Assembly (NCBI RefSeq): GCF_023115355.1
Contig: NZ_CP096019.1
Span: 2,418,001 to 2,482,000, forward strand
DNA from: Halocatena salina
GTDB taxonomy: Archaea > Halobacteriota > Halobacteria > Halobacteriales > Haloarculaceae
Reading direction: 5' to 3'
DNA length: 64,000 nucleotides
A program made the position numbers and the translations under genes. Below, piece after piece: positions 18,822 to 22,963 of this stretch (positions are counted from its first letter, which is position 1; every line of letters starts with the position of its first letter). Under the pieces are notes generated by a model. It worked only from the letters and a program-made list of their open reading frames with translations. It had not been told where the DNA came from and did no database searches.

Positions 18822-19496
18822 CTACGGGCCGAGCGCCCCACGAGCAGCGAGCGGATCGAGGTTCGGAAGCAACCGTTCGCTCGCCGTGTCGATGAGGTTG
18901 TCCCGTTCGACCGATGGCATCGTCAGCACGGGCGCGTCGATCATCGATTCCAGCGCCTCCGGATTCGATCGTTCCGCGATGGTGGTGCCCTCGTACTCGT
19001 TCAGCACGACCGCCAGCACCGGAACGTTGCGCTGTTGTAGCGCTTCGATCGTCAGCGCGGTGTGATTGAGTGTGCCAAGTCCCGAGCGCGCGACGAGTAC
19101 CGCAGAACAGTCGAGATCGGCGACGAGATCAACGACCTCCCGGTCGTCGGTGAGTGGTACACGCAATCCCCCGATCCCTTCGAGAACGCCGACAGCGACG
19201 TCCTCGAACGCGGCGACCGTCTCCTCACGAATCGATTGATAGGAGAGATCGGTGCCTTCGCGCTCGGCCGCCACGGCGGGAGCCAGTGGTTCCGTGAGAT
19301 ATCTGAGACAGACGGCGGCATCGGGATCGTCACAGACCGTGGCGATGACGTTCGCATCGTCGTCAGGGGGAAAGCCCGTTTGAGCAGGTTTTACAGCCCG
19401 AGCGTCGCATCCGTGCTCACGGAGTGCACCCACCAAGCCGGCAGTAACGATGGTCTTTCCGACGCCTGTACCGGTGCCGACGACGGCGATCCTCAT
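18822..19496 (-). CDS. bioD: Dethiobiotin synthetase
   Basis: This 224-residue enzyme is set from the ATG at 19496, where the start overlaps the bioF stop. The P-loop GTGTGVGKT is at residues 7-15, VKPAQTGF follows at about 35, and GIGGLRVPLTD marks the loop near residue 108. It carboxylates 7,8-diaminopelargonate to dethiobiotin using ATP and CO2. It is the last gene of bioB-bioU-bioF-bioD. A longer frame upstream overlaps bioF fully and is not the gene. Confidence 0.93.
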   Translation of the reverse strand: MRIAVVGTGTGVGKTIVTAGLVGALREHGCDARAVKPAQTGFPPDDDANVIATVCDDPDAAVCLRYLTEPLAPAVAAEREGTDLSYQSIREETVAAFEDVAVGVLEGIGGLRVPLTDDREVVDLVADLDCSAVLVARSGLGTLNHTALTIEALQQRNVPVLAVVLNEYEGTTIAERSNPEALESMIDAPVLTMPSVERDNLIDTASERLLPNLDPLAARGALGP

Positions 19497-20725
19497 CGTT
19501 TTTCCTCCGCTCGTTCGAACGCCGCTACGCACTGTTCGACATCGCGTTCGGTGTGGGTTGCCATCGGTGCCAATCGAATCCGGCTCGTCCCGTCGGGCAC
19601 CGTGGGCGGACGGATGGCAGGCGCGATGATGCCCGCTTCTTCGAGGTGGGTGGCGAGTTCCATCGCCTCGGTCCGGTTCCCGATCAACACTGGGACGATG
19701 TGTGTTGTTCCTAACACATCGAAGCCGAGCGATTCCAATCCGGTACGGAGCCGTTCGACGTTGTCCCACAGCTGTGTGCGCCGGGAACCGTTTCTGGCGA
19801 TCGAAAGCGCCGTTCGTGCCGCGGCCGCGGCGGGCGGTGACAGGCCGGTCGAAAAGACGAACGAACGCGCGGTGTTCGAGAGGTGTTCGATCACCGGCCC
19901 GCTGGCAGCGACGAACCCACCCTGTGCAGCCAGCGCTTTCGAGAGTGTTCCGAGCTGAACGTGCACCCTGCCGGTGAGTCCCTCGCGTTGGACGATCCCG
20001 CCACCATCTTCGAACACGCCGGTCGCGTGGGCTTCGTCGACCATCACCCACGCGCCGTACCGTTCTGCAACGTTACACACTGCTCCCAGTGGAGCGACGT
20101 CGCCGTCCATGCTGAACACCGAATCGGTGACGACGAGCCACGATTCATCACTATCAGGGGCACGATCGGCCATCGCGTCAGCCAGCGCGGTGGCGTCACA
20201 GTGGTCGTAGACGACGATCTCCGCGTCGGATAAGCGACAGCCATCGACGATGCTCGCGTGGTTGTACGCGTCCGAAAACACCACGTCCGGATCGAGCGCC
20301 GTGATAGTGCCGACGTTCGCCGCATACCCCGAGGAGAAGACAAGCGCCCGTTCGGTCCCTTTCGATTCGGCCAGATCCCGTTCGAGCGCGCGGTGGACGG
20401 GCGTATCGCCGGTGACAAGCCGGCTTGCTCCCGCTCCCGTTCCGATCGAATCGGCGACGGAGCTGGCGGCGCGTTGGACGCGTTCGTCGGTGGCTAGTCC
20501 GAGATAGTTGTTCGACGCAAACACCATCATCTCCGTCCGTTTTCCGAACACCGGTTGATCGGCACCGGGATCCTCGGCGTATCGACTTCGTTCACTCACC
20601 GATTCGACCGGGGTGAGATCTCGTCGAAGTCCCCGCTCCTTGCGGCCGTCTATCCGTGCTTCGAGATCGAACCCCCGGTCGGTGCGATCGGCGAGACGAG
20701 AGCGTTTCTCCCGGTTGTTGGTCAT
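19493..20725 (-). CDS. bioF: 8-amino-7-oxononanoate synthase
   Basis: This 410-residue alpha-oxoamine synthase depends on PLP. The PLP-binding lysine is Lys263 in LGTLSKALAAQGG, and Asp230 of VDEAHATG pairs with the cofactor nitrogen. ASNNYLGLA and GTGAGASRLVTG mark the N-terminal substrate region. It condenses pimeloyl thioester with alanine to 8-amino-7-oxononanoate. The closest alternative, glycine C-acetyltransferase (Kbl), is made unlikely by the biotin operon context. It follows bioU by 14 bp. Confidence 0.92.
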   Translation of the reverse strand: MTNNREKRSRLADRTDRGFDLEARIDGRKERGLRRDLTPVESVSERSRYAEDPGADQPVFGKRTEMMVFASNNYLGLATDERVQRAASSVADSIGTGAGASRLVTGDTPVHRALERDLAESKGTERALVFSSGYAANVGTITALDPDVVFSDAYNHASIVDGCRLSDAEIVVYDHCDATALADAMADRAPDSDESWLVVTDSVFSMDGDVAPLGAVCNVAERYGAWVMVDEAHATGVFEDGGGIVQREGLTGRVHVQLGTLSKALAAQGGFVAASGPVIEHLSNTARSFVFSTGLSPPAAAAARTALSIARNGSRRTQLWDNVERLRTGLESLGFDVLGTTHIVPVLIGNRTEAMELATHLEEAGIIAPAIRPPTVPDGTSRIRLAPMATHTERDVEQCVAAFERAEEKR

Positions 20726-20739
20726 GGATTGGCCATCAG

Positions 20740-21798
20740 TTAGAATCCCGGCAGTAGCTCTGCCGGACCGAACACGCCGTAGACGCCGTTTCGGTTCATC
20801 CGAACGCCCGTTTTCAGGTAGCCGATTGCCGGCCCGTTCACGTTCGCTTCCATGCTTGTCGCATCACCGAGTTGGAACGTGTTGGTCGCGCGCTCGCCGT
20901 CAAACGTCGTTCCAGTCACTTTCACGGTCGTTGTCGTGGGCTTTGCATCGTTGCGAACGTCGAGGACCCCGCCGACAGAAACGTCATCCGAATCGCAGAT
21001 CCCCGCCCGTTCGAGCAACACGTCGTCAGCGTGTTCCATGTCGGTGAACTCAAGCATCCCGTCGTGGTCGTCGATCACCGCCTCGATCTCCTCGTCGGTC
21101 ATCTCTCTAGCGGTTTCGATGTCGTACTCATCGAGGTGGGCGATGTCCTCCCTGACCGTCCCCCGGTTGTCCTCGTAGCCGGATTTGAGTCCCACGCCCC
21201 ACCGGATGTCGACTGACTCCACGTCAACGAACGACTGGGCAGCGAGCGCTGCTCCACCGGTGAGAAATCCGGGCGTCGCGCCCGCACCACAGACGAACGT
21301 AATCCCCGAATCGACTAATCGATCCTCCCGTTCGTCGAGCATCCCGATCACGCGCGACCGTTTTAGCACGTCGATCAACACACCGTCATACCCAGCGTCG
21401 ACGAACTGATCGGTGACACGCGGAATGAAATCGTGTTCGAGGTTCGGCAACGCCATGAGCACCGCGTCGATGAGTTCACTTTCTGCGATCACGTCGTCGA
21501 TCGGTGTTGTCGTGTGGTCTCCTTGGATCGAGGCAGCGACGCCCTCGCCTTCCCCGCTCCGTTTGATCGCAATCCCACCGTCGGTTGCCGGATCGTCTGG
21601 CTGCTCGTTCCTGCTAGCGATGTTGCCCTCCGTCGCGTCGAGAAGCTCCGTCACGTCCAGACCTTCGTGATCGACCGCGATCCCGTGACGATCACACGCC
21701 GCAACCGGCGTGAGCCATTCTTTATGAGTCGACAGTTCGAGCGCCCGTCGTCCGATACCACCCGTTCCGAGTACCGCAACTGTAATGTCGTCCATCAT
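20740..21798 (-). CDS. bioU: BioU-like 7,8-diaminopelargonate synthase (saccharopine dehydrogenase-like fold)
   Basis: This 352-residue oxidoreductase has an N-terminal Rossmann motif (VLGTGGIGRRAL) and a C-terminal domain of the saccharopine-dehydrogenase type. It is usually annotated only as an oxidoreductase. Its place between bioB and bioF, in an operon with bioD but without bioA, fits BioU, the NAD(P)H-dependent enzyme first described in cyanobacteria that makes diaminopelargonate with its own lysine as amino donor. Lys146 in DVLKRS is a candidate reactive lysine; I cannot align it to the cyanobacterial residue here. Haloarchaeal homologues may instead use a free amino donor. Confidence 0.75.
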   Translation of the reverse strand: MMDDITVAVLGTGGIGRRALELSTHKEWLTPVAACDRHGIAVDHEGLDVTELLDATEGNIASRNEQPDDPATDGGIAIKRSGEGEGVAASIQGDHTTTPIDDVIAESELIDAVLMALPNLEHDFIPRVTDQFVDAGYDGVLIDVLKRSRVIGMLDEREDRLVDSGITFVCGAGATPGFLTGGAALAAQSFVDVESVDIRWGVGLKSGYEDNRGTVREDIAHLDEYDIETAREMTDEEIEAVIDDHDGMLEFTDMEHADDVLLERAGICDSDDVSVGGVLDVRNDAKPTTTTVKVTGTTFDGERATNTFQLGDATSMEANVNGPAIGYLKTGVRMNRNGVYGVFGPAELLPGF

Positions 21799-21823: not shown

Positions 21824-22933
21824 TCAGTCGTCCTGTTGTGCGGTGCTGGTCGCCGTCCCGGCGGCGGTCTCGATGCGTGGAGAGCTGTCGCTCTGGTCTT
21901 TCACCGCTGCCGGGTCGAAGTCGTTGACAGATCGGTTGGGTTCTAACCCTGCCCGCTCGATGATCCGGATGTCCTCGCCCGGAGATTGACCCTCTGTCGT
22001 GAGATAATCCCCCGAGAGAACCCCGTCCGCGCCCGCCTCGAACGGAAGGTGTTGCTCGTCCGGGGCGAGGTTCACCTCTCGACCACCGGTGAGTCGCACC
22101 CGAGCGTGGGGATGGAGGAACCGATACACTGCGATCGTTTTGATCAGCTCGGTCGTCGAGATCAGTGCGGACTCACGCTCACCGAGCGGTGTTCCGGCTA
22201 CTGGATTGAGAACGTTCACCGGGAGTGACGACACTCCAACGTCCTGTAGTGCGATGGCGGCCTCAACCCGATCGGTCGGCGTTTCGCCCATCCCCAGAAT
22301 GACCCCGGCACACAGGTCCATTCCCGCCTCCTTTGCGACTCGGAGCGTCTTTACCCGATCCTCGAAGGTGTGGGTAGTGATGATCTCCGGGAAATATCGT
22401 GGAGAGGTCTCGATGTTGTGGTTGTAATGGTTGAGCCCCTCCTCGGCAAGGATGTCGGCTTCTTCACGAGTGAGGATGCCGAGGCTCGCATCGACTTCGA
22501 CGCTCGTTTCCTCACGAACCAACCGGATCGACCGGATGACCTGCTCCCACTCCTCGGGCCGGCGTTCCTTGCTCACACCTTTTTCCGCGACGACGATACC
22601 GAACCGCTGTGCACCGTCTCGTTCGGCGCGTTTGGCCGCCGAGAGGATCTCTTCGGGATCGAGAAATCCATACGTGTCGATTCCGGTGTCGAAGTGCACT
22701 GATTGGGCACAGAATCCACAGTCCTCCGCACAGTTCCCTGCTTTGGCGTTCACGATGCTACACGCATCGACAGTTCCGTCACTGAACCGCGACCGAACGA
22801 GATCAGCCCCCGCTGCCAGCACCCCGACTGGCTGGGCGAGCAACGCGAGTCCGTCCGTCCGGTCGAGGCTCTCACCATCGAGTACGCGCGCCACAGCGCC
22901 GTCGACTGTCTGGTTACCAGTCTCGTTAACCAC
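21824..22933 (-). CDS. bioB: Biotin synthase (radical SAM)
   Basis: The radical-SAM cluster motif is Cys68-x3-Cys72-x2-Cys75 in NCAEDCGFCAQS. Typical BioB blocks follow: YNHNIETSPRYFPEI and RLTGGREV, the Arg of which helps bind the [2Fe-2S] cluster. It inserts sulfur into dethiobiotin. I start it at GTG 22933, about 26 nt after the TATA centre, which fits a leaderless message. The open frame extends upstream to 22975 through the TATA box and operator, so that longer start is unlikely. The C-terminal 40 residues are a variable tail. Confidence 0.92.
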   Translation of the reverse strand: MVNETGNQTVDGAVARVLDGESLDRTDGLALLAQPVGVLAAGADLVRSRFSDGTVDACSIVNAKAGNCAEDCGFCAQSVHFDTGIDTYGFLDPEEILSAAKRAERDGAQRFGIVVAEKGVSKERRPEEWEQVIRSIRLVREETSVEVDASLGILTREEADILAEEGLNHYNHNIETSPRYFPEIITTHTFEDRVKTLRVAKEAGMDLCAGVILGMGETPTDRVEAAIALQDVGVSSLPVNVLNPVAGTPLGERESALISTTELIKTIAVYRFLHPHARVRLTGGREVNLAPDEQHLPFEAGADGVLSGDYLTTEGQSPGEDIRIIERAGLEPNRSVNDFDPAAVKDQSDSSPRIETAAGTATSTAQQDD

Positions 22934-22963
22934 ATAGACACAACTGGTTAACAGATTATAAAC
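22925..22963 (-). promoter_or_regulatory. Biotin operator and TATA box of the bio operon
   Basis: A perfect inverted repeat, GTTAACC (22925-22931) and GGTTAAC (22946-22952), has a 14-bp spacer. This matches the layout of BirA operators, whose bacterial form is TTGTAAACC with about 15 bp to GGTTTACAA. On the minus strand a TATA-like TTTATAATC (22955-22963) precedes it. The operator covers the expected transcription start and the GTG start of bioB, so a bound repressor would block initiation. A BirA with a DNA-binding domain should exist elsewhere in the genome. Confidence 0.7.

Follow-up and report, generated by a model that had tools for sequence, protein, structure and literature searches.

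A predicted BioU-type diaminopelargonate synthase in place of BioA in the biotin operon of Halocatena salina

BioA, the PLP-dependent diaminopelargonate aminotransferase (TIGR00508), and BioU, whose primary paper is reportedly Sakaki 2020, are presumed to carry out the same step of biotin synthesis with unrelated proteins. As described in two sources (PMC12915131, PMC7133116), the BioU of Synechocystis uses NAD(P)H to attach 8-amino-7-oxononanoate covalently to one of its lysines; carboxylation follows, then NAD(P)+-dependent release of diaminononanoate carbamate, and the reaction costs the enzyme the lysine amine. The protein from Synechocystis sp. PCC 6803 (Slr0355) is represented by the PDB entries 6IR4, 6ITD, 6K36, 6K37 and 6K38. 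Its Rossmann dehydrogenase fold recurs in saccharopine reductase and in the carboxyspermidine and lysine dehydrogenases. These enzymes also carry out secondary-amine or imine chemistry, as does BioU, but they act on free substrates and not on a lysine of their own.

The window, the whole 64,000-nucleotide stretch of Halocatena salina DNA that was analyzed, contains a gene whose open reading frame is bounded exactly by positions 20740 and 21798 on the minus strand. It comes second in a tightly packed operon on that strand, with the order bioB-bioU-bioF-bioD.

21824..22933, minus strand: bioB, biotin synthase, above the TIGR00433 cut-off, with a GTG start inside the operator
20740..21798, minus strand: bioU, 352 amino acids, a BioU homologue and predicted diaminopelargonate (DAN) synthase replacing BioA
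19493..20725, minus strand: bioF, 8-amino-7-oxononanoate synthase, best NCBIfam match TIGR00858 at 419.8 bits, slightly under its cut-off of 426.45
18822..19496, minus strand: bioD, dethiobiotin synthase, 224 amino acids, above the TIGR00347 cut-off

The bioB and bioU genes are separated by 25 bases and bioU and bioF by 14, and bioF and bioD overlap by 4. An earlier note on this DNA had described a bio operon of bioB, bioF and bioD without bioA and with a gene for a BioU-like protein between bioB and bioF, and both the reading frames and the NCBIfam matches agree with it. The gene for BioW (PF03744, the pimelate step) was searched for in the Halocatena salina genome and was not found. In 29 haloarchaeal loci an alpha/beta-hydrolase-like protein, named by eye, is encoded upstream of bioB and divergently from it, at a median distance of 175 bases; as the BioW search of this genome came up empty, the protein is possibly a BioH-type enzyme.

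The bioU product matched the NCBIfam model NF047886, "(S)-8-amino-7-oxononanoate synthase BioU", with an E-value of 2.4e-100, and phmmer aligned it with the Slr0355 structure 6ir4 at 1.9e-85. The proposed kinship with cyanobacterial BioU is thus upheld by alignment. Strong sequence matches in the PDB were confined to the Synechocystis BioU entries 6ir4, 6k36, 6itd/6k37 and 6k38. The NF047886 score of 335.7 bits falls well below the naming cut-off of 600 bits, a value that none of the 391 genomes of the class passes. By that equivalog's own rule the protein lies outside it, but the threshold governs automatic naming, and we do not regard it as defining the BioU family biologically.

An AlphaFold model of the protein, built with 31 aligned sequences, had a pLDDT of 86.2 and a pTM of 0.85. 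Its best structural match was 6itd, with a Z score of 45.9, an rmsd of 1.5 Å over 325 aligned residues and 45% identity. Against all five BioU structures Z ranged from 45.1 to 45.9 and rmsd from 1.5 to 1.7 Å, and together with the phmmer result this shows the homology to Slr0355 to be full-length. The next family was carboxyspermidine dehydrogenase (Z 20.9), followed by the saccharopine reductases (Z about 17); identity to these and to lysine dehydrogenase was below 20%. It follows from this ranking that "saccharopine-dehydrogenase-like", the term used in the earlier note, describes the superfamily fold and that BioU is the specific relative. The term is sound for the fold but found no counterpart in Pfam, as a Pfam-A scan at E 0.001 matched no family. 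The gene adds a branch to an enzyme family that is already known and does not represent an enzyme of a new kind. The haloarchaeal protein and Slr0355 have in common the fold, the equivalents of Lys124 and His233, a Gly-rich nucleotide-binding loop and a setting in which BioA is absent. Unlike Slr0355, the haloarchaeal protein is acidic and lysine-poor, as a halophilic protein, and has an insert near residues 61-83, modelled at a pLDDT under 50. The haloarchaeal gene sits in an operon with bioB, bioF and bioD.

Two codons mark the residues expected to be central to the reaction.

21361..21363, minus strand: Lys146 codon (AAA); the residue corresponds to Lys124, the lysine that Synechocystis BioU sacrifices
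21031..21033, minus strand: His256 codon (CAC); the residue corresponds to His233, which is mutated in PDB 6K38

In the phmmer alignment Lys146 falls on a position occupied by Ala in 6itd, an entry titled as the K124A mutant. A constant offset of 12 converts the chain positions of this lysine and of the histidine changed in 6k38 (H233A) to 124 and 233. Lys146 is lysine in all 151 BioU copies from the window and 150 haloarchaeal loci, in 149/149 of the full-length haloarchaeal set, and in 80/80 cyanobacterial loci; the latter are the best 80 of 455 relatives, chosen by similarity to Synechocystis, so that cyanobacterial diversity is under-sampled. His256 is likewise invariant in the 149 full-length sequences and in the same best 80 of 455. 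Lys146, put forward earlier as a candidate for the reactive lysine, is borne out by the alignment to the K124A chains and by this conservation. In the tblastn alignment three copies (L188, L189 and L190) showed a frameshift or a split; the full-length set omits L188, L190 and the remnant L203 and retains L189.

Lysine makes up 1.8% of residues in haloarchaeal BioU compared to 4.1% in the cyanobacterial set. Six columns are lysine in 90% or more of the cyanobacterial sequences. Two of them, 285 and 302, have almost wholly lost it in haloarchaea and two others, 26 and 329, are relaxed, whereas 146 is kept in 149/149 and 286 in 148/149. Lys146 thus resists the general drift away from lysine, as expected of a consumed or catalytic residue. 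Its invariance alone does not single it out, since 83 columns are invariant in both groups.

By homology with the Synechocystis enzyme, haloarchaeal BioU probably performs the BioA step by a mechanism that sacrifices Lys146, a reading to which we assign a probability of about 0.9. It is built on the homology, the fold, the conserved lysine and histidine, the operon, the co-occurrence with BioD and a genome search that found no BioA-grade gene, all directly observed. In Halocatena salina the epsilon-amino group of Lys146 would condense with the ketone of the 8-amino-7-oxononanoate made by BioF, and reduction of the imine by NAD(P)H would give a covalent conjugate of enzyme and diaminononanoate. 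Carboxylation of this conjugate would involve His256, and oxidation by NAD(P)+ would free diaminononanoate carbamate for BioD. Lys146 would be left as allysine, and each BioU protein would work once. The counterpoints to a BioU function are the score of the protein relative to the NF047886 cut-off and 30 near-fixed differences between haloarchaeal and sampled cyanobacterial BioU, several of them beside the lysine (V144, S148, R149, V150). A further counterpoint is L003, an aminotransferase of the same genome that is considered below.

The 30 differences also bear on whether the enzyme might make the same product over many turnovers. Either Lys146 would still be the donor and be regenerated, with another enzyme re-converting the allysine, or the 30 substitutions would let an external amine reload it, or a free amine would serve as the donor. 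The invariance of Lys146 alone cannot separate a regenerated lysine from a sacrificed one, and some of the group-specific positions lie next to it. However, a free-amine enzyme would not need Lys146, which never varies in the 151 copies, and no allysine-repair gene family stood out beside the operon: when the flanking reading frames were clustered, the 14 largest clusters, which mix real and spurious frames and were named by eye, contained no suitable neighbour. Multiple turnover is thus unlikely; if true, it would mean that suicide and catalytic versions exist within one family. We lean toward a single-turnover archaeal BioU, given that neither the donor lysine nor His256 varies and that the neighbourhood offers no evident partner for repair.

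The absence of BioA was examined in the whole genome, and by gene presence and absence BioU appears to stand in for it in a genome that has the other biotin ring genes. No protein passed the BioA cut-off (TIGR00508, 405 bits) and the best score was 229.1 bits, in keeping with the expectation that bioA would not be found elsewhere; the genome is 98.18% complete and a gene in a gap is conceivable. The four class III aminotransferases encoded in the genome all fit other families better than BioA, their best NCBIfam matches being ArgD/LysJ-type, diaminobutyrate (Dat), acetylornithine-type and HemL. Across the class, BioA above the cut-off was found in none of the 391 genomes. Could one of the four nevertheless do the BioA step, leaving another role for the BioU homologue? 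The most plausible would be L003, an acetylornithine-type enzyme for which transamination of this ketone is conceivable in principle, and four related loci have an aminotransferase gene of its type between bioU and bioF. But all four score under the cut-off and are better placed elsewhere, and BioU both co-occurs with BioD and sits between bioB and bioF, which makes this explanation quite improbable. The four related loci (L105, L108, L122 and L127) belong to genomes of one genus and carry the class III aminotransferase gene on the opposite strand; the L105 protein, the one scanned, is acetylornithine-type and under every cut-off shown.

BioU was found in 149 of the 391 genomes (E below 1e-50), BioB in 177 (E 1e-70) and BioD in 149 (E 1e-18). 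BioU and BioD occurred together in 147, a near-perfect co-occurrence, although the genomes are related and the Fisher value overstates their independence. At these thresholds BioU appeared without BioD in G186, where the locus stops at a contig end, and in G324. BioD appeared without BioU in two genomes; in one of them, G265, the operon contains a bioU copy with a frameshift. BioB accompanied BioU in 148/149. Where BioB occurs without BioU, in 29 genomes, BioD is missing as well in 28. The four genes are contiguous on one strand in the order B-U-F-D in 127 of the 151 BioU loci, and in 10 more about 0.7 to 1.8 kb separates U from F. A saccharopine- or lysine-dehydrogenase-like amino acid enzyme that is in the operon by chance would share the BioU fold, which is common to carboxyspermidine, saccharopine, lysine and diaminopimelate dehydrogenases, but it is very hard to reconcile with this gene order, with the joint absence of BioU and BioD, and with a Z of 21 or less for those families as against 46 for BioU.

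A substitute enzyme was sought in the genomes without BioU by inspecting the bioB loci of 17 of the 29 (L190-L206). One, L190, is the frameshifted BioU copy of G265 and another, L203, holds a bioU remnant. L198 and L205 have bioB-bioF without bioU or bioD. In the other 13, bioB was the only one of the four genes, as if these organisms finished biotin from scavenged dethiobiotin. Four other loci with bioB alone (L207-L210) are additional bioB loci in genomes that do have BioU.

The best 80 of 455 relatives all carry cyanobacterial record titles. When 54 haloarchaeal and 20 cyanobacterial sequences were placed in a tree, the two groups were split by a long branch with 100/100 support. Within the phylum, 14 of 294 sampled genomes matched at E 1e-30, all of them in the window's order. 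The tree and the restricted distribution are consistent with one old acquisition, possibly by the haloarchaea.

The start of the operon carries additional features that are relevant to its regulation.

22925..22952, minus strand: biotin-operator-like palindrome GTTAACC-N14-GGTTAAC, overlapping the bioB start
22955..22962, minus strand: putative TATA box, TTTATAAT, lying some 26 bases ahead of the GTG of bioB

The distance from TTTATAAT, read as TATA-like from its letters, to the GTG is as expected of a leaderless haloarchaeal transcript. Of 167 regions upstream of bioB, 154 carry the pattern GTNAACY-N14-GGTTNAC overlapping the start of the gene; the regions are related sequences and not independent. 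Spacings other than 14, in the range 6 to 24, occurred in three cases (two at 13 and one at 18), and letter shuffles of the regions gave a mean of 0.01 palindromes per set. The right half-site encodes the first BioB residues, a separate constraint on the sequence; given the right half, the left half was present at spacing 14 in 149 of 163 regions. The whole genome has two such sites only, one at the bioB start and the other just upstream of bioY (G000:C4:363160-363187, or L304:1501-1528), and a reversed control pattern gave zero sites. The palindrome presumably resembles the bacterial BirA operators, whose form was reportedly described by Rodionov 2002. The genome also encodes a biotin protein ligase that has the BirA architecture, with an HTH_11 domain at its N terminus. 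The operator shared with bioY and the BirA-type ligase suggest that biotin probably controls the operon together with the transporter; such control supports a role in biotin metabolism for all of the operon's genes.

No haloarchaeal BioU was found in the literature, judged by title or start of abstract among the matches listed, in a search that subscription journals and preprints mostly fall outside. If the favored reading of a Lys146-sacrificing BioU is right, vitamin synthesis at the cost of an enzyme's own lysine would reach beyond cyanobacteria into a second domain of life, and the missing BioA step of haloarchaeal biotin synthesis would be filled. Whether single turnover is obligatory could then be asked in a halophilic system that is open to genetics, and the pairing of BioU with BioD would offer a simple genome marker of likely biotin prototrophy in the class. 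The assignment would correct public records as well. Of seven haloarchaeal plasmid records that match bioU (NZ_CP078064.1, NC_019976.1, NZ_CP111041.1 and four others), six call the gene "transcriptional regulator" and the seventh calls it "hypothetical protein"; in the three plasmid regions read, the neighbouring bioB, bioF and bioD are named. These three regions show that haloarchaeal megaplasmids carry complete bio operons, a possible route for the transfer of biotin prototrophy.
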